Both the position numbers and the translations under genes were made by a program. From contig NZ_NFZS01000003.1 of the NCBI RefSeq assembly GCF_003264855.1, positions 124,001 through 188,000 on the forward strand: 64,000 nucleotides of DNA, given 5' to 3'. Numbering within the stretch: position 1 is the first letter of the stretch; every line of letters begins with the position of its first letter. Origin of the DNA: Dyella jiangningensis (GTDB taxonomy: Bacteria; Pseudomonadota; Gammaproteobacteria; Xanthomonadales; Rhodanobacteraceae). This document shows positions 33,727-45,162 of this stretch, in pieces. A model generated the notes under the pieces. The model did not search any database and was not told the origin of the DNA. It was given only the letters and a program-made list of their open reading frames with translations.

Positions 33727-33963
33727 TCAGGCCGCCCGTCCGAGAAAAGGGGCGGAAGATGCGAACTGCGCGAGGCGGATGGTCGACTCGGTGCCTGGCA
33801 TTTCGACGCATACGGAGCGCCCCGAACGCAGGTGCTCGTCACGCGCGACTTCACGTGCGAGCCGGATGGCCGCAGGCAATTGCAGGTGACTGAACAGCGA
33901 GGCACCGGAGCGGCATACGTTCCATTGGCCTTCGGCGGACTGCTTGAGCGAATAGGTGACCAT
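33727..33963 (-). CDS. Small conserved-looking hypothetical protein, DUF2188-like pattern
   Basis: A 78-residue frame from ATG 33963: MVTYSLKQSAEGQWNVCRSG, then an amphipathic helix LPAAIRLAREVARDEHLRSG and a last strand SVCVEMPG. The order strand-strand (with Trp and Gly), helix with AR pairs, then strand resembles the short DUF2188-type fold, but I am not sure. The frame continues upstream to 34062 without support. The gap in front carries a GTA-N4-TAC dyad at 34105, so it may belong to the 34-45 kb regulon. Confidence 0.5.
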   Translation of the reverse strand: MVTYSLKQSAEGQWNVCRSGASLFSHLQLPAAIRLAREVARDEHLRSGRSVCVEMPGTESTIRLAQFASSAPFLGRAA

Positions 33964-34104
33964 GTGTTCCGAACCCAGTAGCAAGAGGGAGAGCCCCGTC
34001 ACTTCGATCGCGTGAGCGCGAAGCTCACCAACATGTCCGTTCTGGACCGACCAAGAGTGCACTCGATCTACGGAGGAACCTATCGGCTCCTCACTGAGTA
34101 TTGC

Positions 34105-34128
34105 GTAGGAATACGACTACATTCGTAG
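34105..34128. promoter_or_regulatory. GTA-N4-TAC dyad A with additional half-sites
   Basis: GTAGGAATAC at 34105-34114, followed by CTACATTCGTAG at 34117-34128, which is the same half-sites turned outward. It lies between the small leftward gene (start 33963) and ligD-like gene (start 34280). Confidence 0.5.
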
Positions 34129-34279
34129 GACGGATACAGTGGGCCTGTTTTCCCGCCAAGGCAACTGTTTCACACCTGATACACGCCGGCTTGTCCCGTC
34201 GTCCGGCAGGGTGTTGTCTTGTAGCCACAGGCACATGGCAAGCGGCGTCCCATGCCGTGCATTTTCCGGAGGCACTCCG

Positions 34280-35179
34280 ATGGGCAGGCAAGCCACTGAG
34301 GACATCGTTGTCACACATCCCGAGCGGGTGCTCTATCCCGAGCTTGGCATCACCAAGGGGGATGTCGCCGAGTATTACCGCGCCGTCATGGAGTGGTTCC
34401 TGCCCGGCGTCGTCGATCGCCCGACATCGGTGCTGCGTTTTCCCGACGGCATCGGTGAGCAAGGTTTTTTCCAGAAGCACCCGATGCGCGGACTGAGCCA
34501 TGCGGGCCACGTGCGGCTGCGCGAGGAAAGCGGCAAGTGGGCCGAGTATCTGTGCCCGAACGATGCCTCTTCGGTGATCGGCCTGGTGCAGTTCGGCACG
34601 ATCGAATTTCACCCATGGGGCGCTCGCGCGAATTCGCTCGAGGAGCCGGACTATCTCGTCTTCGACCTGGACCCGGGCCAAGGCGTGAGCTGGCGCGACA
34701 TCGTCGACGCGGCGCGCCAGATGAAGCGGCGTCTTGGCAAGGTCGGCCTGGATAGCTTCGTGCGCACCACCGGCGGCAAAGGTTTGCACGTCGTGCTGCC
34801 ATTGCATGCCGCGTGCACCTGGGACGACGCCAAGCATTTCGTGCAAGGTTTCGCCCGCACGCTGGCCAACGAACAACCGGATCGTTTCATCGCGAAAGCC
34901 GCGATGGACGAGCGTGGCGGCAAGATCTTCATCGACTACCTGCGCAACAGCCGCGGAGCCACCAGCGTGGCGTCCTATTCGCTGCGTGCGCGTGCCGGCG
35001 CCACGGTGGCGACGCCGCTGCGGTGGCAGGATCTGGCCAAGTGCAAGGGACCAGGTGATTTCACGATAGACACGGTACCGCGACGACTGGCAAGGCTGCG
35101 CGGCGATCCGTGGGAAGGCTTCACCACGCTGCGGCAGGACCTGAAGCAGGCGTTGCACGCCTACGCCGAAGCGGACTAG
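34280..35179 (+). CDS. Stand-alone LigD-type polymerase/primase domain protein
   Basis: 299 residues from ATG 34280, with GGAGG at 34268-34272. It is the archaeo-eukaryotic primase-type PolDom normally fused to the NHEJ ligase LigD. Visible: ITKGDVAEYYRAVMEWFLPGV (N-terminal), VFDLDPG with Asp 129 and Asp 131, RTTGGKGLHVVLP (about 162-174) and IDYLRN with Asp 219. No ligase, nuclease or ku gene is in the window. Such proteins extend or prime DNA or RNA ends at breaks. Its last codon shares the tetranucleotide CTAG with the stop of the convergent response-regulator gene. Confidence 0.9.
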   Translation: MGRQATEDIVVTHPERVLYPELGITKGDVAEYYRAVMEWFLPGVVDRPTSVLRFPDGIGEQGFFQKHPMRGLSHAGHVRLREESGKWAEYLCPNDASSVIGLVQFGTIEFHPWGARANSLEEPDYLVFDLDPGQGVSWRDIVDAARQMKRRLGKVGLDSFVRTTGGKGLHVVLPLHAACTWDDAKHFVQGFARTLANEQPDRFIAKAAMDERGGKIFIDYLRNSRGATSVASYSLRARAGATVATPLRWQDLAKCKGPGDFTIDTVPRRLARLRGDPWEGFTTLRQDLKQALHAYAEAD

Positions 35180-35658
35180 TGAAGCGTTCCGACCAGCGCC
35201 TCGATGCGCCCCAGCGCTGCCGAAACGAAATAGCGGTTGTCGAGCACGCAGCGCACGGCATCGGCCAGATCCTCACCCGCTGAGGCCTTCAGCACATACC
35301 CCTTGCCGATGGTCAGCGCGGCGCGCGCCAGTGTCGGATCGTCATGCACGGTGATGAACACCACCGGCAGCCCGGGCAGCTCCGTCAACAGCTCGCGGGC
35401 TGCCTGCATGCCATCCATGCCGGGCATGCTGATGTCGGTGACCACCGCATCCGGTCGAAGACGGCGAACCGCCTTCACCAGCGCCTCGCCGTGCCCGACT
35501 ACCGCGAGCACATCGAAATCTCCGCCAAGCACTTCGCGGATCTGTTCGGCGACGGGAGGATGGTCTTCGGCCAGAACGACCGTCGGTCGAGTCACGCTCG
35601 CCCCCAGAACGGATAAGGCTACCGACGCAGCATTATCCATCGCGGAAACTTCCGCCAC
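35176..35658 (-). CDS. Single-domain response regulator (REC only), truncated NarL paralogue
   Basis: 160 residues. The REC domain has the acidic pair ED (VVLAEDHPPVAEQI), phospho-Asp in VVTDISMPGMDG, Thr in FITVHDD and Lys in GYVLKASAGEDL. After the REC domain only about 25 residues remain, and no LuxR helix-turn-helix. It is clearly a paralogue of the next gene upstream (GYILKCSAGEDL there). It could act as phosphate sink or dimer partner (inference). A later ATG (MDNAASVAL) is an alternative start. A GTA-N4-TAC dyad lies 26 bases upstream. Confidence 0.85.
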   Translation of the reverse strand: MAEVSAMDNAASVALSVLGASVTRPTVVLAEDHPPVAEQIREVLGGDFDVLAVVGHGEALVKAVRRLRPDAVVTDISMPGMDGMQAARELLTELPGLPVVFITVHDDPTLARAALTIGKGYVLKASAGEDLADAVRCVLDNRYFVSAALGRIEALVGTLH

Positions 35659-35683
35659 CGAAAGAGAACCGAGTTTCCGCTAC

Positions 35684-35693
35684 GTAAAATTAC
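35684..35693. promoter_or_regulatory. GTA-N4-TAC dyad B
   Basis: GTAAAATTAC in the context GCTACGTAAAATTACCTTGG. It sits between the stop of the full-length regulator and the start of the REC-only gene, so it gives the REC-only gene its own control site. Context nearly identical to dyads E and F. Confidence 0.6.
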
Positions 35694-35741
35694 CTTGGCT
35701 GGCGCGCGATTTCGCGAAACCGTGAACTTTTCACCGGTTGG

Positions 35742-36392
35742 CTAGAACAACAGGCCGAGATCCTCCGCGCGACGCACCAGCTCGAGCGTGGAGTGCACGC
35801 CCAGCACCTGCATCATCGTGTACTTGTGTGCTTCCACCGTGCGCACCGAAAGACCGAGCTGCAGGGCGATCTGCTTGGAACGCAGCCCCTCCCCTACCAG
35901 CCGCAGCACCTGCAATTGCTTGGTGGTGAGATTGCGCATGTCGGTCAGCTGCCCGCTGATGTAGCGGGCGCCCAGCGCCGGCGTCACGTAGGTGCCGCCC
36001 AGCATCACCTGCTGTGCCGCATTGCGCAGGTCCTCGCCGGCCGAACACTTCAGGATGTAGCCGCTGGCCCCGGCACGCAGCGCCGCCACGGCCAGCGCCG
36101 GCTCCATGTGCATGGTGAGGAAGATGAGCCGGGTTCCCATGCCTACCTGGCGCATGCGCTTGAGCGCGTCCATGCCGTTGCAGCGCGGCATGTTGATGTC
36201 GGCCACCACCAGATCCGGCTGCAGGCGACGCACGGCATCGACGAGTGCCTCGCCATCCGAAACGATCTCCAGCAGTTCGAAATCTTCGTCGAGGATGTGC
36301 TGCACGCCCTCGGCGACCATGCGATGGTCGTCCGCGATGATCAGGCTTGGCCGTGCAGCGGCTTGTACGGTCCTAACGGAATGCATATGCAT
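35742..36392 (-). CDS. NarL/FixJ-family response regulator
   Basis: 216 residues: REC domain with IIADDHRMVAEG, phospho-Asp in VVADINMPRCNG, FLTMHME and GYILKCS, then a LuxR-type HTH (about 150-210) with LTTKQLQVLRLVGEGLRSKQIA and VRTVEAHKYTMMQVLGV. It overlaps the 3' end of the histidine kinase by 52 bases, so kinase and regulator are translationally coupled and surely cognate. It is the best candidate to bind the GTA-N4-TAC dyads spread over 34-44 kb. Confidence 0.92.
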   Translation of the reverse strand: MHMHSVRTVQAAARPSLIIADDHRMVAEGVQHILDEDFELLEIVSDGEALVDAVRRLQPDLVVADINMPRCNGMDALKRMRQVGMGTRLIFLTMHMEPALAVAALRAGASGYILKCSAGEDLRNAAQQVMLGGTYVTPALGARYISGQLTDMRNLTTKQLQVLRLVGEGLRSKQIALQLGLSVRTVEAHKYTMMQVLGVHSTLELVRRAEDLGLLF

Positions 36393-37927
36393 AGTTCGGT
36401 CCCTTTCCCCAGAGTCGATTGCAAGCCATAGCTGCCACCAAGCAGCTTGGTGCGCTCGTCGATGCTCATCAAACCAAGTCCCCGTTGCCCCTCGGTCTCC
36501 GCGGCAAATCCCTTGCCGTCGTCCTTTATGGTGAGATTCACTCGCTCGTCACCGATCTGCAGTGCTACTTCGATTCGCTGCGCCTCGGCATGTCGTACCG
36601 CATTGCCCAGGCCTTCCTGCGTCACCCGGTAAAGACACAGCGCCACATCCTCGGGCAGATCCTTCGCATGTGGCGATACCTTCAATTCGATGTGTGGACC
36701 ACTGCGGTGCCGCTGCGCCTGGCAGAGCGTCGCCAAGGCTGCCGTCAGTCCTGTCTGAGTAAGCATGCTCGGATGAAGGTCGTGTGAAAGATGGCGCACG
36801 TCCTCCGACAAGGCGATCAGCTCGCTCTGCAGCTGGCTCACGTCGCTGCGATTGCTCTCGTCCACCTTCCTGCGGAGAGCACTCAGCCGGATGGACGCGA
36901 CGGCAAGACGCTGGTTGATGTCGTCATGGAGGTCGCGCGCAATGCGTGCCCTTTCCTGCTCCTGCGCCACGATCAGGCGACCGGCCAGTTCGCGGACTTC
37001 GCTGCTGCTGGCGGACAGCGCGCGCTGCGTCGTCCGGCGCTGCTCGACCATGGCTGCGAGGAACAGCGACGCGATCGTCATGCCCAGCATCCACAGCTGC
37101 ACGCCGAGGTTGGTATGGTCCACGCCGCCCTGCACGAAGGGGCCTTCCTGCGAGAGGCTCAACTGGATCGCGATGATGCCGATCACGAGGTTCACCACGC
37201 TGGTTCCGGGAATCTGCGAGCGCAATGCGACGTAGATCGCCAGCGGAACCGGCGCGAGCAACAGCAGCGGACGCACCGCCGCGATGTCTCCCAGCTCGCG
37301 CCACCCCAGCCAGAGAATGACCAGGGCGACCATGGTGATCACCAGCATGTTCCAGCGCGGCAATGCATCCCGGCGCAGCGACGATGCAGGATTGGCCAGG
37401 CTGACGATGGCCGGCGGCAACACGGCGTAACCAAGCGCATCGGCCAGGCCGACGTGCCACCACGGGCCCGACAACCAGGGCGCCAGGGAGATCACGGAAG
37501 CCAGCCAGGCGATGAACGCCGCCGTCGCCAGCGGCAGCAGCGCGACGGCGACCACCAGGAATCCCAGCAGCCGAGTGAAGTCGTCGATGGACTGGTCGGC
37601 ACGAAACCGGCTGATGACCCAGGCGGCGGCATTGATCAGCAGCAGCACGACCACGTGGGCCAGCCACATGCCCTGCAGCGGCAACCCCAGCACCACGGCG
37701 AAGCTTCCCATGCCGACCAGCCAGCCCAGGTCGTAGGCGATCCAAAACCGAAAGGGCTCGCAGAGCAGCGCGGACAGCAGCAACGGGCCGGGCAACCAGA
37801 TCACCTGCGTGTCGCTCTCGTGATTCCACATGGCAATCGACAGCCACTGCAAGGCTGCCGCGGCGACGAACAAGCCGACGCCGCGCGCCAGATGAGACAG
37901 ACCGTCAGTCCATGCCTTTTCGCCCAT
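36341..37927 (-). CDS. Membrane histidine kinase, MASE1-like sensor with HisKA_3
   Basis: 528 residues from ATG 37927 (MGEKAWTDGLSHLARGVGLF). The first 295 residues are eight or so membrane helices in a MASE1-like arrangement, with no large periplasmic loop. Then comes a short coiled segment, the HisKA_3 dimerisation helix with phospho-His 334 (RARIARDLHDDINQRL) and the ATPase domain (TQEGLGNAVRHAEA N box, DDGKGF, GLGLMSIDERTKLLGG). This is the NarX/DegS-type kinase class. The frame is open to 39022 but that stretch is antisense to the divergent regulator and not used. Confidence 0.92.
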   Translation of the reverse strand: MGEKAWTDGLSHLARGVGLFVAAAALQWLSIAMWNHESDTQVIWLPGPLLLSALLCEPFRFWIAYDLGWLVGMGSFAVVLGLPLQGMWLAHVVVLLLINAAAWVISRFRADQSIDDFTRLLGFLVVAVALLPLATAAFIAWLASVISLAPWLSGPWWHVGLADALGYAVLPPAIVSLANPASSLRRDALPRWNMLVITMVALVILWLGWRELGDIAAVRPLLLLAPVPLAIYVALRSQIPGTSVVNLVIGIIAIQLSLSQEGPFVQGGVDHTNLGVQLWMLGMTIASLFLAAMVEQRRTTQRALSASSSEVRELAGRLIVAQEQERARIARDLHDDINQRLAVASIRLSALRRKVDESNRSDVSQLQSELIALSEDVRHLSHDLHPSMLTQTGLTAALATLCQAQRHRSGPHIELKVSPHAKDLPEDVALCLYRVTQEGLGNAVRHAEAQRIEVALQIGDERVNLTIKDDGKGFAAETEGQRGLGLMSIDERTKLLGGSYGLQSTLGKGTELCICIPLGPYKPLHGQA

Positions 37928-38061
37928 GCATCCCCCATCCGGGTCCCCCGCGACGTCCAAGCATGGACGCCCATCCGAAGCGGGTACGACGCATCTCGCG
38001 CTGGTACCCGTCGCGTTCGTAATTTCTCCATGGATCGCGTCACGTCCTCGTGATGACTTGC

Positions 38062-38071
38062 GTAGATCTAC
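38062..38071. promoter_or_regulatory. GTA-N4-TAC dyad C
   Basis: GTAGATCTAC, a perfect 10-base palindrome, in the context TTGCGTAGATCTACGGGG. It is 135 bases upstream of the histidine kinase start and shares TTGCGTAG with dyad A. Confidence 0.55.
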
Positions 38072-38160
38072 GGGGCCGTGGCGGAAGAAAGTGCCGGCCC
38101 ACGCCGTCGAAATGGGGCGGACGATTCTCGGCGCTGGCCGGTCATCGGCATTTCCGCAGC

Positions 38161-38188
38161 ACCGGCCCAGTATTTTTACTGAGCCGGT
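38161..38188. promoter_or_regulatory. Dyad D within a 12-bp inverted repeat
   Basis: ACCGGCCCAGTA, TTTT, TACTGAGCCGGT: 12-base arms with one mismatch. Its centre is GTATTTTTAC (38170-38179), again GTA-N4-TAC. No T-run follows in either direction, so an operator is more likely than a terminator. It lies 172 bases before the rightward regulator gene. Confidence 0.5.
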
Positions 38189-38359
38189 TTGAGTGAAAGT
38201 TCGCTTACCTCCGGACTTCGGACGGCCCAAGCTGATGCAAAGCCATGGGGCCACACATCGAGGAACCGGCAGATGCGGCTTGACTGCGCGCCACCGCTCA
38301 TCGTCGTCCACGCCGGCCCGCCAAGCACGCGCCGCGGCGGGCGACGGCTGCGCTGAGCC

Positions 38360-39046
38360 ATGGCCAGCCGCGGCGGCAAGCAAGGCAAGGTTCGCCGGCT
38401 TCGCGTCCTGCTCGCGGACGAGCATCGCTGCGTTGCCGAAGGGCTGGCGGGCCTGCTCGCCAAACGCACCGACTCCGTGCGCATCGTGCATGACGGCGAG
38501 GCGCTGTTGCTGGCCGCACTCAACGGCGAGGCCGATCTGGTGATCACCGATATCGCGCTCGCACCCTTCAGCGCCCTGCATGCATTGAGGCGATTGCGCA
38601 AGCAAGGCTGCGAGGTGCCCGTGATCGTGCTTTCCACGCATGGCGAACCACTGATCGTGCGCGAAGCCATGCAGGCCGGTGCCAATGGCTACATCCTCAA
38701 GCAATCGACCAGCGATGAGCTCTACAGCGCCATCGAAGCAGTCGCCGCCGGCAACCAGTACGTCTCCCCGGAGCTGATGGCGTCGCTGTTGCAGGCTCCC
38801 GAGGCGGCGCACCGGCTCACGAGACGACAACACGACGTGATCCGCTGCATGGCAAGGGGCCTGCGCACCAGCGAGATCGCCGCCACGCTCGGCATTTCGG
38901 TTCGCACGGTGGAAAGCCACCGGCAGGCGTTGCTCGATCTGCTCGGCGTGCACAGCGGCGTGGCTTTGATCCGCGAAGCCGAGCGCCTGGGGTTGATCCC
39001 GCTCACGCCCTACGACGCCCATGCCAACGGTGGAGAAGAACCATGA
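38360..39046 (+). CDS. NarL/FixJ-family response regulator with atypical phosphorylation loop
   Basis: 228 residues: REC domain (VLLADEHRCVAEGL, phospho-Asp in VITDIALAPFSAL, VLSTHGE, GYILKQS) and LuxR HTH (LTRRQHDVIRCMARGLRTSEIA; VRTVESHRQALLDLLGV). The loop after the phospho-Asp lacks the usual MPxxxG and reads IALAPF, so its phosphorylation behaviour may differ. Third paralogue of the cluster, divergent from the kinase operon and followed 83 bases later by envelope genes on the same strand. Confidence 0.9.
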   Translation: MASRGGKQGKVRRLRVLLADEHRCVAEGLAGLLAKRTDSVRIVHDGEALLLAALNGEADLVITDIALAPFSALHALRRLRKQGCEVPVIVLSTHGEPLIVREAMQAGANGYILKQSTSDELYSAIEAVAAGNQYVSPELMASLLQAPEAAHRLTRRQHDVIRCMARGLRTSEIAATLGISVRTVESHRQALLDLLGVHSGVALIREAERLGLIPLTPYDAHANGGEEP

Positions 39047-39128
39047 TCGTGATCGGCTCGTTCCCGCCCTGCATGCGCGTTGCGCCTGTCATCCACGCTA
39101 TCCGCATCGAAAGAGGAGGATCCACGTC

Positions 39129-39710
39129 ATGAGGCCACTCCGCTACGTCGTACTGCTTGCATCCTCGCTGCTCGTGGCGTGCTCCGCCGTCACCGTCACT
39201 AACCAATGGAAGGACCCGACCTGGGCCGGCCCACCGGTTTCCAACGTGCTCGTGCTCGGCATCGCCAAGAGCGACACCAATCGCCGCCTGTTCGAAGACA
39301 CGCTCGCCGAACAGCTGCATGCCGCGGGCGTCACGGCCGAGGAGAGCTACGCCGTGATCCCGTTGGGTGGCGGGTCCCAGGAAAAACTCGTCGAACTGGT
39401 GAAGAACAGCGGGGCGCAGGCCTTGCTGGCGACGCGTGTCCAGCGCGTCGAGCAGAAGACCAACGAAATGACCTCGGGGCCGGCCTATGGCCGTTTCTAT
39501 TCGTGGTACGGCAACGCCTGGTCGATGTCCCCCGAACTCACGCAATACGATGTGGTCACTTTGGAAACCAGCGTGTGGGATCTGAAAACCGAGAAGGTCA
39601 TCTGGTCCACCACCACCGAAAACGTCAGTTCTACCAACATACCGCAGGCCGTGCGCCAGCTCGCGTCCACGCTTATCCCCAAGCTCAAGAGCGACGGTGT
39701 GATTCGCTGA
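39129..39710 (+). CDS. Lipoprotein of unknown function (DUF4136-like)
   Basis: 193 residues from ATG 39129, with AGGAGG at 39114-39119. Signal peptide with lipobox LLVAC (Cys 18), so a membrane-anchored lipoprotein. The mature domain has TNQWKDPTWAGPPVSNVLVLGI, FEDTLAEQLHAAGVTAEESY and a C-terminal VWDLKTEKVIWSTTTENVSS, a nucleotide-independent alpha/beta pattern seen in DUF4136-like lipoproteins. The earlier ATG at 39021 overlaps the regulator gene and is rejected. Function unknown. Confidence 0.75.
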   Translation: MRPLRYVVLLASSLLVACSAVTVTNQWKDPTWAGPPVSNVLVLGIAKSDTNRRLFEDTLAEQLHAAGVTAEESYAVIPLGGGSQEKLVELVKNSGAQALLATRVQRVEQKTNEMTSGPAYGRFYSWYGNAWSMSPELTQYDVVTLETSVWDLKTEKVIWSTTTENVSSTNIPQAVRQLASTLIPKLKSDGVIR

Positions 39711-39774
39711 GCTGGAACGAGGGCGGCGTGGTCTTCGCCGCCATTGCGCTTTTCCTTTCCCACGGAGCGCCAAC

Positions 39775-40242
39775 ATGAATAACCTCGCCGTCCGTCTCAT
39801 CACCCTGGGCTGTTGCGCCATCGCCACCGCTGCCCTTGCCCAGCAACCACCGCCGATGCCGGTGGCCTATCCGGCCCAAGGCCAGAACGCGGCCCAGCAG
39901 CAGGCGGACAAGAGCGCCTGCATGTCGTGGGCACAGACCAATGCGCCGACGCAACCGGTGCCCGCGCAGCAGACCGGCCCCGCCGTTGGCGGAGGACAGC
40001 GTGTCGCCGGCGCGGCACGAGGCGCGGCGGCCGGCGCCGTGATCGGCGGCGTTGCCAATGACGATGCCGGCCACGGCGCCAAGGTGGGCGCCACCGCCGG
40101 CGTGGTGGCCGGCGGGATGCGTGCGCGACAACAGCGGCGCGAGCAGAACGCGGCAGCGGCCCAGGTGCAAAGCAACAACGCCACGAATGTCGGCCAGGCG
40201 TACAGCGCCTGCATGCAGGGCAAGGGTTATACCGTCAACTGA
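39775..40242 (+). CDS. Exported glycine-zipper protein
   Basis: 155 residues with a signal peptide (NLAVRLITLGCCAIATAALA). The centre (about 75-115) is a glycine zipper: VAGAARGAAAGAVIGGVAND and GAKVGATAGVVAGGM, two membrane-compatible helices with small residues every fourth place. A Cys in each flank (KSACMSW and YSACMQGKGY) could pair. Such proteins insert in or associate with the outer membrane. Fifth base set upstream has no strong ribosome site. Last rightward gene before a convergent hairpin. Confidence 0.8.
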   Translation: MNNLAVRLITLGCCAIATAALAQQPPPMPVAYPAQGQNAAQQQADKSACMSWAQTNAPTQPVPAQQTGPAVGGGQRVAGAARGAAAGAVIGGVANDDAGHGAKVGATAGVVAGGMRARQQRREQNAAAAQVQSNNATNVGQAYSACMQGKGYTVN

Positions 40243-40259
40243 CGAACCTCTGTGGGATG

Positions 40260-40284
40260 GCGTGGCGCGGTGTCAGCGCCACGC
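40260..40284. terminator. Convergent hairpin between glycine-zipper and barrel genes
   Basis: GCGTGGCGC (40260-40268), 7-base loop, GCGCCACGC (40276-40284). The stop codon of the leftward barrel gene lies at the loop. No T-run, so only a probable terminator. Confidence 0.45.
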
Positions 40285-41523
40285 GCTACCCACCTGGATG
40301 TAATACGCGTGGTCGTCCTGGCTGCGTGCCCAGTCGAGGCCTGCGTACAAGCCCAGCGCGCGTGCGATCAGGTAACGAAAACCGACGCCCTCCGTCGCGT
40401 GCGTGCTGGCATCCCCGAAACCAACGCGCCGTCCCCATGCCTTGCCTGCACCACCGAAGCCGATCAGGGCCCAGCGCGGCGTGAGATTCCAGCGCAGCTC
40501 CGCCTCGATCATGCCGACGTTCTCGTCCTGGTAACGACCGTAGGAAATGCCGCGCAGGTCGATCGATGGCAATTGGTAGAACGGCGTCTCGCCCCGGGCG
40601 GCCCGGACATCGGCGCGCAAGCCGAGCACCCAGCTTTGCGCGACGGGTAGATAGCCGTAGACGTGCGTGCGATAGGTCTGGAAGGTGTTGTCGCTGCCGA
40701 ACGCCGGCGCATACGCCGTCCCTTCCAGGCGCCACAGCCAACCCCTCGATGGCGTGAGCGTGTTGTCGCGCGAATCGTAGCTGAGCCCCAAGCCAAGCCC
40801 CGACGCGCGGCTGGCAAAATCCTTGGGCTGGAAGTACGGGCGATCGCTTTGCAGGTTGAGACGGCTATCCAGATCCATGTAGATCCATCGCCCCGACAGG
40901 AACCAGTCGCTGCGCCCCAGGCGCCGTGACACTTGCTGGTAAGCGAAGATGCCATCGAGGTTGTAGCCGATCTTGTGCGATTCCTGCAGCAGTCCCTGCG
41001 TATAGAAGTCCAGGTTCACCGAGGCCTTGCCGGCGAGAGCCGCGTAACGCCAGCTGTCGTCCTTGAAGTGGAAGCTGCCGCCGCCGCCGAACCCCCACGT
41101 GCCATTCTCGGTCTTGAAGGCGCCCACACCGTAGATGTTCGGCGGAATGCGGTCGCCCCGTTCCTTCGATGCTTCCGACTGCGGCGGGCGCTGGAAAAAC
41201 ACGGCCGCCAATCCACCGCCGGTGCCCACGGCCGGTTCGGTGATGATGATCGGCACCAGCAGCGCACCCTTGTGCTGCAGCAGCCATCGCGACATGTCGA
41301 CATCGCCGTCCTTGGGATCCTTGAAGGCGTCCCACCATGAGCCTTTCGGCGCATCGCCTGTGTCAGCCGCAATGGCAGACGGCAAGCCTGGATCGACCGC
41401 GGCATGCGAAGCGACCTCGTTCACCGGGACTTCCCTGGTGTCCTCTCCCGGCATGGCATGAACCTGCTGCACGGCAGCGGCCCATACCATCAGCGACCAA
41501 GCAAGGCTGTGTTTGCGTGCCAT
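40273..41523 (-). CDS. Outer-membrane barrel of the BamA/TamA (bacterial surface antigen) family
   Basis: 416 residues from ATG 41523 (MARKHSLAWSLMVWAAAVQQVHA signal peptide). About 80 residues of linker precede VPIIITEPAVGTGGGLAAVFF, then repeated amphipathic strands with alternating aromatic residues: GLGLSYDSRDNTLTPSRGWL is the Omp85 signature region, and the chain ends AYYIQVGSAWR. POTRA domains are missing, so it is a short, barrel-only member. A 13-residue longer start (41562) is less likely. Dyad E stands 163 bases upstream. Confidence 0.82.
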   Translation of the reverse strand: MARKHSLAWSLMVWAAAVQQVHAMPGEDTREVPVNEVASHAAVDPGLPSAIAADTGDAPKGSWWDAFKDPKDGDVDMSRWLLQHKGALLVPIIITEPAVGTGGGLAAVFFQRPPQSEASKERGDRIPPNIYGVGAFKTENGTWGFGGGGSFHFKDDSWRYAALAGKASVNLDFYTQGLLQESHKIGYNLDGIFAYQQVSRRLGRSDWFLSGRWIYMDLDSRLNLQSDRPYFQPKDFASRASGLGLGLSYDSRDNTLTPSRGWLWRLEGTAYAPAFGSDNTFQTYRTHVYGYLPVAQSWVLGLRADVRAARGETPFYQLPSIDLRGISYGRYQDENVGMIEAELRWNLTPRWALIGFGGAGKAWGRRVGFGDASTHATEGVGFRYLIARALGLYAGLDWARSQDDHAYYIQVGSAWR

Positions 41524-41685
41524 CCCGGCCCTCGCAAGCAGTTCGATGTCGGGTCCGCTCATCCGCAGGCGCCGTCGGCGCGCGGCCTGCCCGTGAGGGC
41601 GGAAGCGTGCGCGTCAACGACGCGCAAGGTCAGCTTGCCGCACGGCACGCAGGCGGCACAGCGCAAATACTCGGTAGTCGGCTAG

Positions 41686-41695
41686 GTAAATCTAC
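41686..41695. promoter_or_regulatory. GTA-N4-TAC dyad E
   Basis: GTAAATCTAC in the context GCTAGGTAAATCTACCCGGT. Located between the DUF2950 stop and the barrel gene start, both leftward, so it probably controls the barrel gene. Confidence 0.6.
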
Positions 41696-41729
41696 CCGGT
41701 CGTCCGTCGCCGTCGCACGGAGCGTCGGC

Positions 41730-42629
41730 TCACTGCTCGGGCTTGACCTCTTGCCAGCTGCTGTCGGGATCGAAGGATTTCATCGCCTCGGCGATGCTCG
41801 CCCCGTTCTTGCCCAGGTCCTTCTCGAAGACCTCGCCATCATGGCTCACCATGAAACTCATCACGCCGGTCTCGCCGTACTGCGAGGGCCATGCAATGAG
41901 CGCGAAGCCACTGGTCATACGCCCGCCCACGACGTAGTTGTAGGCGCCGCCCGGTGCCGACGGCCCTTGCGAGGTGAGGATGCGGTAGCGGTAGCCGTGG
42001 AAATCCGGCCCCGTGGGCTCTTCGCCCACGAACCGTTCGCCCAGTGGACTCTGGGGTCCGTCGCCCGTCGCTGGCCAGTACAGTCCATCGTGCTTGCCGG
42101 GACTGCTCCTGAGCTTCTGTGCGTATTGCAGCACGTGATCGCCATCGCGATCCTCCGCCGCATACTCGCGCTGGGCGTCGTAGTACGCGAGCATCGCCTG
42201 TTCGGCTGCCAGTTCGTTCGCGCCGATGCGGCGAACACGAATTTCTTCGGCACCTTTCTTCAGATCGAAGTGCCAACCGTCCTTGCCCTGCACCATGGGC
42301 AAGGGCAGCACCCAGTTCTCGGAACCGACATTGAGATGCGCCACGCCGTCGGCGGTCTCGATGCGATGGCTTTCGTCATAACGCTTGAGGAACAGATCGA
42401 CGTCATCGCGATCGATACCTTCCGTCGGTATGTAGTCCTTCCAGTCGGCACCCAGCACCTTGGCGAAAGCGACCTTGTCGCTATCGCGCAAGGCTTTGAC
42501 GAAGGCCGTGACTGCGGCATCCGCCGTTGGGTAGCTGGCTTCCTGCGCCATGACGAAGGAAGCGGCGGTGAAGCCCGACCACAGCGTCAGGGCCAGCACG
42601 AAGCGAAGTGTCCATGGATTGCGGTTCAT
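41730..42629 (-). CDS. DUF2950 exported protein
   Basis: 299 residues with signal peptide (RFVLALTLWSGFTAASFVMA). Family marks: YPTADAAVTAFVKALRDSD, GWHFDLKKGAEEIRVRRIG, GANELAAEQAMLAYYDAQREYA, DGLYWPATGDGPQSPLG and FHGYRYRILTSQGPSAPGGA. DUF2950 genes usually sit next to DUF3300 genes, as here: start is only 2 bases after the DUF3300 stop. Function of the family is unknown; it is periplasmic. Confidence 0.9.
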   Translation of the reverse strand: MNRNPWTLRFVLALTLWSGFTAASFVMAQEASYPTADAAVTAFVKALRDSDKVAFAKVLGADWKDYIPTEGIDRDDVDLFLKRYDESHRIETADGVAHLNVGSENWVLPLPMVQGKDGWHFDLKKGAEEIRVRRIGANELAAEQAMLAYYDAQREYAAEDRDGDHVLQYAQKLRSSPGKHDGLYWPATGDGPQSPLGERFVGEEPTGPDFHGYRYRILTSQGPSAPGGAYNYVVGGRMTSGFALIAWPSQYGETGVMSFMVSHDGEVFEKDLGKNGASIAEAMKSFDPDSSWQEVKPEQ

Positions 42630-42631
42630 GG

Positions 42632-44077
42632 TCAGACTCCTAGGCGACGGCGTCCGCCACCACCGCCACGACTGGGCGCTGGGCGTGACATCTGCCGGCC
42701 ACCACCGCCGCCGGCACCACGTGACTGGGACATCGAACGCTGGCTCGCCTGTCCACGATTCATCTGCGAGCGCGACGATCCGGGCGATTGCGAGCCGCTG
42801 AATGCATTGTTGCGAGCGCCACCCGACTGCCGGTTGCCACCGAAATCCTGGCGTGAGCCACCGCGATCTGCTCCACTGAAATTGCCACGGTCGGCCACCT
42901 GGCCACCACCGCGATTTCCCCCGTTGACGTTGCCGCGATCCCCTGCGCCCTGCCCTCCGCGATTGCCGCCGGACGGACGGTTGAGCGCCGCACCGGTCTC
43001 TCCTGCACCACGCCGTGCAGCCATGGAGGAACCATTGTTCGTGGCGCGGTCGAAGCTCTGCAGCGAATTCTGTCGACTGGCATCGCGGGCCGAATCACGA
43101 CCGCGGAACGCTTCGCGCTGTTGCGAACCACCTCGGCCCTGGTCAAAGCGCTGGCGGCTGGCGGAGTCGCGATAAGGCGTGCCTCGTCGATTGTCGGGAT
43201 TGTGGTTCCATCGCTGGTTGCCGTTGCCGGAGATGCGGTTGTTGACGTTGTTGACGCTGTTGTAGCGATTGACGTTGACGTTCACGTCGCCGTGGCCCCA
43301 GTTGAAACCGCCCCACAACGCACCGGTGATCGCGATGCCCACGCCGAAGGCCATGCCCGCGGCCAGGGCCTGGCCCGGGTAGTAGCCATACGGCGGCGGC
43401 CAATACGTCGGCGGATAGGAGGGATACGGCCATGCGCCGTAAACCACCGTCGGGTTGTATTGCGGCACGTACACCACCTGCGGATTCGAGGGTTCGATCT
43501 GGATGATGGTGGTGCCTTCGGTCGATCCCGGTGGCGCCGCCTGCTCGGTCACCTTCTGCTGCTCGTTCGACTTGAGATTGCCCGATGCCTTCGCCTGCGC
43601 ACGCAATCGCTGCACCGACGCCATCACGTCGTCGGGCTGCGCCAGGAACGCATCACCCACGTTCTGCACCCAGTCGGGATGCTCCTTCATCTGTGCGAGC
43701 ACCTGCGGAAACGCCACCAGCGATTGCACGCTGGGATCCCAGGGCTTGGTGTTCACCTGCTTGACCGCGTCGTCGCCCTTCGCCTTCGGGTTGGCCGCCG
43801 ACCAGGCTGCTGCTTCGGCGACGTCGCTCGGATACGTCGTGGCCATGAATATCTGCGAGAGCAGTGCATCCGGATAGAGCGCCACCGGCGCCAGCATCTG
43901 ATCAAGCTGCTGGTTGTTGTAGATCTTCTGGCTCTGGGCCTGGTTCTGGCTCTGGGCCTGGTTCTGGGGTTGCGGCTGGCTCGCCTGCGCATGGACCGCG
44001 CCCGAAAGCACGATCGGCAACAACGCAAAACGCCAGAGGCACGTCCGCAGGAACCCACAACGCATCGTCGTCTTCAT
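42632..44077 (-). CDS. DUF3300 exported protein with Gly/Asn/Arg-rich tail
   Basis: 481 residues with signal peptide (basic start, LWRFALLPIVLSGAVHA). A Gln-rich linker, then the DUF3300 domain (about 50-225): LDQMLAPVALYPDALLSQIFMATTYPSDVAEAA, WDPSVQSLVAFPQVL and IEPSNPQVVYVPQYNPTVVYG. After a short glycine-rich hydrophobic stretch (AAGMAFGVGIAITGALWGG) the last 200 residues are low-complexity (Gly, Asn, Arg, Ser, Gln). First gene of the DUF3300-DUF2950 operon, with dyad F 92 bases upstream. Function unknown. Confidence 0.88.
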   Translation of the reverse strand: MKTTMRCGFLRTCLWRFALLPIVLSGAVHAQASQPQPQNQAQSQNQAQSQKIYNNQQLDQMLAPVALYPDALLSQIFMATTYPSDVAEAAAWSAANPKAKGDDAVKQVNTKPWDPSVQSLVAFPQVLAQMKEHPDWVQNVGDAFLAQPDDVMASVQRLRAQAKASGNLKSNEQQKVTEQAAPPGSTEGTTIIQIEPSNPQVVYVPQYNPTVVYGAWPYPSYPPTYWPPPYGYYPGQALAAGMAFGVGIAITGALWGGFNWGHGDVNVNVNRYNSVNNVNNRISGNGNQRWNHNPDNRRGTPYRDSASRQRFDQGRGGSQQREAFRGRDSARDASRQNSLQSFDRATNNGSSMAARRGAGETGAALNRPSGGNRGGQGAGDRGNVNGGNRGGGQVADRGNFSGADRGGSRQDFGGNRQSGGARNNAFSGSQSPGSSRSQMNRGQASQRSMSQSRGAGGGGGRQMSRPAPSRGGGGGRRRLGV

Positions 44078-44168
44078 GGTGCCGCTCCCATGCCGCCTTT
44101 GGCGCCCGCATCAGCTTGACTCCACCGACGCCCGGTCTGCCACTGCATTTATGCGGTAGCTGCGCTAA

Positions 44169-44178
44169 GTAAAACTAC
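44169..44178. promoter_or_regulatory. GTA-N4-TAC dyad F
   Basis: GTAAAACTAC in the context GCTAAGTAAAACTACCTAGG. It stands in the divergent gap of the DUF3300 operon (start 44077) and the outer-membrane protein gene (start 44314) and could serve both. Confidence 0.6.
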
Positions 44179-44313
44179 CTAGGCGTGGCGCCCGAGGTGT
44201 CCGTGTTCCAGACCTCCGTAGAAATACGCATGGGCGGATACGTAATAGTTCGCTGTGTGCAGGCGGGGAAACGTTCCACCATAAACGCACCATTTCCGTG
44301 GGGAGCATTCGTC

Positions 44314-45162
44314 ATGCGCCGTTTCATCACCCTGCATCACAGGTATTTCGTGCTCTCCCTCGGCCTGGCAATCGCAGCGTCGCTTGCTGCGCCCGCCGCC
44401 AAGGCCGACACATCGGATTTCTGGGACGGCAACTGGCACGGCAACATCCAGCCCTATGTCTGGCTGCCTGGCATCAGCGCAGAGACGCGCTACCAGTTGC
44501 CCAACAACGGTGGCGAGGTGCAGCAGAAGACGGACAACAACATCTTCTCCTACCTCAGTGGCGCTTTCATGCTCGACGGCACCGTGCGCAAGGGCGACTG
44601 GGGCATGTACGGCGACATCGACTGGGTGAAATTCAGCGGTGAAAAGGGACGTTTCACCGATATCGGCGGCGACCGGATCGGCGCCGGCGCGAACCTCGAT
44701 ACGCGATGGGGCTTGAAGGGCGGCATGGTGAACCTGGCCGGCCTTTACACCATCGCCCATACGGGACAGGGCTTCATCGATCTGTTGTTCGGCGTACGCT
44801 ACCTCTGGGTCAAGGGCAACCTCGACTGGAACTTCTCGCTCAACGGCAACGCCGGCAACGTCAACATCGCCCGCAGCGGCCATCTCAACAACCAGATGCA
44901 TGTCACCGATGGCATCATCGGCATACGCGGCAATTGGTCACCGTTCGAGGACAAGCGCTGGTTCTTCCCCTATTACCTGGACTTCGGCGCGGGCAGCTCG
45001 GACACGACGTACAAGTTCAGTTTCGGCGTCGCCTACGGTTTCGATTGGGGCGACATCGGCTTCAGCTACCGCGACATCAATTACAGCCACAGCGGCAACG
45101 ACAAGTTCATCAAGGACCTGACGCTGAGCGGCCCGACGTTCAGCGTCAACTGGAACTTCTGA
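44314..45162 (+). CDS. Outer-membrane beta-barrel protein, function unknown
   Basis: 282 residues from ATG 44314, GGGGAG at 44300-44305. Signal peptide (FVLSLGLAIAASLAAPAAKA), then a chain of about ten amphipathic strands: GNIQPYVWLPGISAETRY, GDWGMYGDIDWVKFSG, DLLFGVRYLWVKGNL, FGVAYGFDWGDIGFSYRDI, ending in SVNWNF with the C-terminal Phe used for outer-membrane assembly. Resembles porin-like or OmpW/OmpX-type single barrels, but no ligand can be named. Divergent from DUF3300 across dyad F. Confidence 0.8.
   Translation: MRRFITLHHRYFVLSLGLAIAASLAAPAAKADTSDFWDGNWHGNIQPYVWLPGISAETRYQLPNNGGEVQQKTDNNIFSYLSGAFMLDGTVRKGDWGMYGDIDWVKFSGEKGRFTDIGGDRIGAGANLDTRWGLKGGMVNLAGLYTIAHTGQGFIDLLFGVRYLWVKGNLDWNFSLNGNAGNVNIARSGHLNNQMHVTDGIIGIRGNWSPFEDKRWFFPYYLDFGAGSSDTTYKFSFGVAYGFDWGDIGFSYRDINYSHSGNDKFIKDLTLSGPTFSVNWNF

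Follow-up and report, generated by a model that had tools for sequence, protein, structure and literature searches.

The window analysed here is a stretch of 64,000 nt (124001-188000 of the contig) from a 4.76-Mb genome. It contains a cluster of two-component and envelope genes, which we annotated with Pfam and NCBIfam. A NarL/FixJ-type response regulator, referred to here as RR1 (35742..36392, minus strand; Pfam REC and GerE), overlaps the gene of a sensor kinase (36341..37927, minus), which combines a multi-pass N-terminal part (MASE1-like, UhpB-like) with HisKA_3 and HATPase_c domains. Beside RR1 lies a gene for a REC-only response regulator (35176..35640, minus; Pfam Response_reg). A second NarL/FixJ-type regulator with REC-GerE architecture, RR2, is encoded divergently (38360..39046, plus). 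In both RR1 and RR2, the Response_reg and GerE matches (a receiver, then the GerE helix-turn-helix) exceed the cut-off. The acceptor Asp is present in RR1 (ADINMP), RR2 (TDIALA) and the REC-only protein (TDISMP). The first-pass annotation counted three NarL/FixJ-family regulators in the cluster, but the product of 35176-35640 consists of a receiver domain and lacks a DNA-binding domain.

The remaining genes were assigned by family search. They encode a lipoprotein with a weak DUF4136 match (39129..39710, plus), a glycine-zipper protein (39775..40242, plus), an Omp85-family outer-membrane barrel (40273..41523, minus), a DUF2950 protein (41730..42629, minus) and a DUF3300 protein (42632..44077, minus). 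The divergent gene at 44314..45162 (plus) probably encodes an outer-membrane protein; its product has no family match in Pfam or NCBIfam. Adjoining the cluster is a stand-alone LigD primase-polymerase domain protein (34280-35179), with no ligase domain in the same ORF, whose gene is gone from some relatives.

Dyads in the gaps of the cluster

The first-pass annotation had also listed six GTA-N4-TAC dyads in the gaps of this cluster. All six are present at the positions given, but the list was incomplete, as a seventh gap site at 44218 had been overlooked. The accompanying expectation that chance would give very few was borne out. The gaps between 33629 and 44313 (1,801 bp) hold seven such dyads. 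When the gap sequences were dinucleotide-shuffled 5,000 times, the mean number was 0.11 and no shuffle gave more than 2. For the AT-type core, GTADWWHTAC, the same gaps have six matches versus 0.009 by shuffle. Across the window there are ten GTAN4TAC matches, with 0.86 expected from shuffles. GTA ranks first as a half-site in the gaps among all 64 trinucleotides, and a spacing of 4 stands out, each other spacing from 0 to 15 yielding at most one match. The previously noticed shared context GCTAnGTAAAnyTACC is real and belongs to a longer palindrome, TAnGTA-N4-TACnTA. A match within the DUF3300 coding region, GTAGCCATAC (43382-43391), has a GC core and no counterpart there in the examined relatives; we take it as a chance occurrence.

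Six of the gap sites are primary dyads in front of cluster genes. GTAATTTTAC (35684..35693, minus), in a CTAC/CTTGG context, lies 5′ of the REC-only gene. The kinase-RR1 operon is preceded by GTAGATCTAC (38062..38071, minus), RR2 by GTATTTTTAC (38170..38179, plus) and the barrel gene by GTAGATTTAC (41686..41695, minus). The DUF3300-DUF2950 pair follows GTAGTTTTAC (44169..44178, minus), and 49 bp from this dyad is GTAGAAATAC (44218..44227, plus), 5′ of the outer-membrane gene.

The remaining dyad, GTAGGAATAC (34105..34114, plus), has the core GGAA. Unlike at the other sites, both its core and its flanks are frozen in five sequences, within a longer conserved block. Given this and the lack of an AT core, we set it aside, and it probably lies outside the regulon to which it had been assigned. 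The block itself (33900-34120) is strongly conserved, lies 5′ of a small ORF (33727-34062, minus) and contains, in addition to the 34105 dyad, a hairpin-like dyad whose form in locus L029 is GAGGAACC-GATA-GGTTCCTC. It appears to be a distinct element, either regulatory or an RNA.

Conservation and genome-wide distribution

Relatives' loci were found via RR1, whose nearest named relative is that of Dyella jiangningensis SBZ 3-12 (98% identity); they come from ten Dyella species and more distant organisms. Their gaps have two sites before the kinase and RR2, one between RR1 and the REC-only gene, two (49-50 bp apart) between the DUF3300 and outer-membrane genes, and a further one that often precedes the barrel gene. 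Sites near orthologues, whose conservation had been proposed as a check, thus keep the same gaps across about ten Dyella loci. In alignments of these gaps, GTA and TAC are invariant, while the core drifts yet remains a dyad (GATC, GAAC, AAAC, GATA). The 35684 dyad, for example, keeps its position, with a variable core, in Rhodanobacter as well as in 10 Dyella loci. The position of the 38062 dyad is occupied in Pseudoxanthomonas too, where each of two loci has one site 5′ of a kinase-RR pair. RR1 relatives with 40-48% identity, from Desulfobulbaceae, Variovorax and other groups, have no AT-core site beside the regulator; the exceptions are Sandaracinobacteroides, with two, and an Ectothiorhodospiraceae MAG, with one.

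We scanned the source genome by pattern searches plus retrieved stretches. GTADWWHTAC has 33 matches, of which approximately 22 are intergenic (p about 1e-12, relative to the window's 13% non-coding share). The motif is mostly intergenic across the genome. The intergenic tally was lowered from 23 because C1:462507 lies in purH; a simple gene caller had placed it between genes since the reading frame is broken there. This purH (locus L001; G000 C1:461007-464016) has two reading frames overlapping near 1618-1667 of the locus, and appears to contain a frameshift or an assembly error. The raw genome counts of the pattern (33) and the reversed pattern (47) make an uninformative comparison, as CAT..ATG is common in coding DNA.

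Most sites sit elsewhere in the genome, so the first-pass description of the regulon as local does not hold. Gene clusters downstream of sites recur in up to nine genomes. Site-fronted genes encode DUF1254/DUF1214 and DUF3300/DUF2950 proteins, Phenol_MetA_deg outer-membrane proteins, the outer-membrane barrel, SulP, MscS, an OmpA lipoprotein, an AI-2E transporter with an OEP protein, a bestrophin-like protein, a sulfatase, an OprB porin and the regulators themselves. The sites mark the predicted promoters of about fifteen to twenty gene groups, mostly envelope or transport genes of unknown function. In genome G008, a near-identical sequence, GTACTTCTACGTACACTCCGGTTCCTGCGCT, occurs at five places; it is probably a repeat family that is not related to the dyad motif.

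Predicted operator and promoter grammar

Alignment of site-gene pairs yields the primary site TAnGTA-RWWY-TACnTA. A second, degenerate copy, GTRGWTTTKCGCT, is located 23-24 bp closer to the gene. Motif discovery on the gene side gave this second element as TRGWTTTKCGCT. In 23 of 54 sequences it lies at an offset of 15 or 16 from the dyad end; no positional peak arose in a shuffled control. When each unrelated gene cluster is represented by one sequence, the best match falls at offset 15-16 in 14 of 48 (p 3e-10). Many sites, among them the one at the predicted kinase promoter, lack the element or have it in weak form. A -10-like hexamer, mostly CAWGCT (CANGCT), peaks 22-23 nt past the second element. 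This peak is present in about 11 of 18 clusters, and the hexamer coincides with conserved columns in the gap alignments. No -35 box is evident at these predicted promoters. If the hexamer is assumed to occupy -12 to -7, the second site would be centred at about -42.5 and the primary site at about -66 relative to the start.

Within the cluster, the REC-only gene has a degenerate second element, TTCTCTTTCGGT (35657..35668, minus), at offset 16 from the 35684 dyad, and the -10-like AATGCT (35629..35634, minus), which was identified by gap alignment and element analysis. The location of AATGCT implies that the gene starts downstream of it; the probable start is a GTG (35595) that lies 89 bp from the dyad. 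RR2 has TGAAAGTTCGCT (38194..38205, plus) followed by CAAGCT (38228..38233, plus), and the barrel gene has AGTATTTGCGCT (41660..41671, minus) followed by CAAGCT (41632..41637, minus). In front of DUF3300, a weak form of the element, CATAAATGCAGT (44142..44153, minus), is almost invariant in Dyella and scores below the threshold of the per-cluster element test; the CAAGCT there (44113..44118, minus) is invariant in nine aligned sequences. The outer-membrane gene has TAATAGTTCGCT (44243..44254, plus) and the -10-like CATAAA (44280..44285, plus), which occurs 25 nt after CGCT and not 22-23.

The composite pattern with the right spacing has 54 matches in 13 genomes with RR1 and nine in 104 genomes without it. 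When the spacing is shortened by 5, the corresponding numbers are one and nine. Genomes and loci outside the discovery set (G078, G089 and G112) behave in the same way.

The candidate regulator and its proposed regulon

The sample for co-occurrence consisted of 117 family genomes, 13 with RR1 and 104 without. At least five matches of TANGTARWWYTAC (TAnGTARWWYTAC) are present in 12 of the 13 and in none of the 104. The association has a Fisher p of 2e-15 with kinship ignored, and nine of the 13 genomes come from one genus, so they are non-independent. Within two genera the contrast persists. In genus g19, only G019 carries RR1, and it has 18 matches. In genus g11, RR1 is found in G089 (8 matches) and G112 (5 matches). 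G033 is the exception: it has a 58% identical RR1 homologue and no strict match, but one loose site adjoins RR1. Given that sites are numerous only in genomes with RR1, this regulator is likely the master switch, and RR1 (35742-36392) is the leading candidate for binding the dyads. RR1's own operon is fronted by an operator-like site that is kept in relatives. The predicted autoregulated envelope regulon under a NarL/FixJ-type regulator of the cluster is thus supported by position conservation, intergenic location and co-occurrence with RR1.

The sites and their positions, conservation, two-site grammar and co-occurrence are established by computation. Building on them, we consider it probable that the dyads are RR1 operators, and that the MASE1-like kinase and RR1 drive a lineage-wide, autoregulated envelope regulon. 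When phosphorylated, RR1 would bind TAnGTA-N4-TACnTA, the symmetric primary site, whose predicted centre is near -66. It would also occupy the degenerate site near -42.5, probably cooperatively, and recruit RNA polymerase as a class II activator at promoters with the -10-like CANGCT. Its targets would be the operon that encodes it, RR2 and the REC-only gene, together with envelope and transport operons across the genome. We infer RR1 as the binder, activation instead of repression, phosphorylation dependence and the start sites.

A third FixJ-type regulator, RR3, is encoded elsewhere in the source genome (L023:3137-3763; G000 C5, about 203,436-204,062). Glu replaces its acceptor Asp. Downstream of RR3 are two dyads 29 bp apart, and then the AI-2E/OEP operon. 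Among the alignable GerE proteins of the source genome, RR1, RR2 and RR3 have in common the Glu-bearing recognition helix (S)xRTVE[AS]H[KR], whereas most others have TVK helices.

This likeness of recognition helices makes it a real possibility that all three regulators act on the same operators, in shared, competing or heterodimeric regulation. The second site, which is asymmetric and has a right half unlike the primary site, is consistent with such sharing, but the motif persists in the absence of RR2. A specific version, which we put forward tentatively, is that RR1, RR2 and the Glu-bearing RR3 read one two-site operator while the REC-only protein is a phosphate sink. If so, the DUF3300, DUF2950 and DUF1254 proteins would act jointly in one envelope response.

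The second element, TTKCGCT, is asymmetric, with conservation confined to the gene side, and could instead be a -35 box recognised by an alternative sigma factor. This is unlikely, since its distance from the -10-like hexamer, about 23 bp, exceeds a sigma70-type spacer and the primary half-site recurs in its left half (GTGG/GTAG, often TAGGTGG). Also unlikely is a reading in which the chief binder is RR2, or RR3 beside the AI-2E operon, and RR1 is no more than its companion. The common recognition helix and the dyads before RR2 and just 3′ of RR3 would fit such a role. However, no RR2 orthologue was found in G019, which has five composite sites besides its 18 matches, so RR2 is not needed for the motif. 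Moreover, the 20 kb examined in Pseudoxanthomonas contain the kinase-RR pair and a site but show no RR2, and Glu at the acceptor position argues against RR3. Finally, although intergenic DNA is slightly richer in AT, an origin of the dyads in chance or gap composition is ruled out by the gap shuffles, the conserved positions and the co-occurrence with RR1.

With RR1 as the probable binder, the proposed regulon can be compared to known systems. FixLJ of rhizobia also has a NarL/FixJ-type regulator and a TAMGTA half-site, which is contained in the FixJ SELEX class GTAMGTAG and in the fixK site TAAGTAATTTCCCTTA (PMC4999443). This site and TAAGTAATTTTACTTA here are both 16-bp imperfect palindromes, and the sites of the regulon generally are built from TAMGTA half-sites arranged as a palindrome of about 16-18 bp. 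At fixK, FixJ gives two upstream footprints, -69 to -44 and -57 to -31 (PMC4999443). Unlike in FixLJ, the kinase here is multi-pass and MASE1-like (29.3 bits, just below the cut-off of 29.8), and a domain search matched no haem-PAS or other PAS domain in it. The targets are envelope genes and not fixK or nifA, and RR1 scores 82.7 bits on the NCBIfam FixJ equivalog model, below its cut-off of 255.

DevR/DosR of Mycobacterium similarly combines a strong distal primary site with a weaker adjacent proximal one. In DevR promoters, the gene-proximal secondary site overlaps the -35 region and binding is cooperative (PMC3029386). The positions here, computed from hexamer-inferred starts, are compatible with this class II geometry, but sequence, spacing, phylum and signal differ. 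UhpBA resembles the present pair in joining a MASE1-like kinase to a NarL-type regulator. The kinase matches the UhpB model over its full length (130.9 bits, below the equivalog cut-off of 408), and neither the cluster nor the examined target genes include a hexose-phosphate transporter.

In root-nodule bacteria, DUF3300 and DUF2950 genes are co-localised and strongly induced in transcriptomes, without a functional clue (PMC4653623); as here, DUF3300 is upstream of DUF2950. E. coli yacH (DUF3300) is CpxR-regulated and tied to protamine tolerance (PMC9600279). DUF3300 loci sampled in other clades have no upstream GTA-N4-TAC, apart from one non-matching dyad at -598, and we rejected DUF3300 as a carrier of the motif outside this lineage. 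The regulon thus appears to be a lineage-specific wiring of widespread genes.

Neither the motif nor the regulon turned up in the literature searched. The analysis supplies an exact operator and promoter grammar that can be tested, and names a likely regulator. It would tie DUF3300, DUF2950 and DUF1254/DUF1214, which are widespread envelope families of unknown function, to one signal. The role of the DUF3300-DUF2950 pair would become directly testable through a kinase or RR1 knockout in Dyella.
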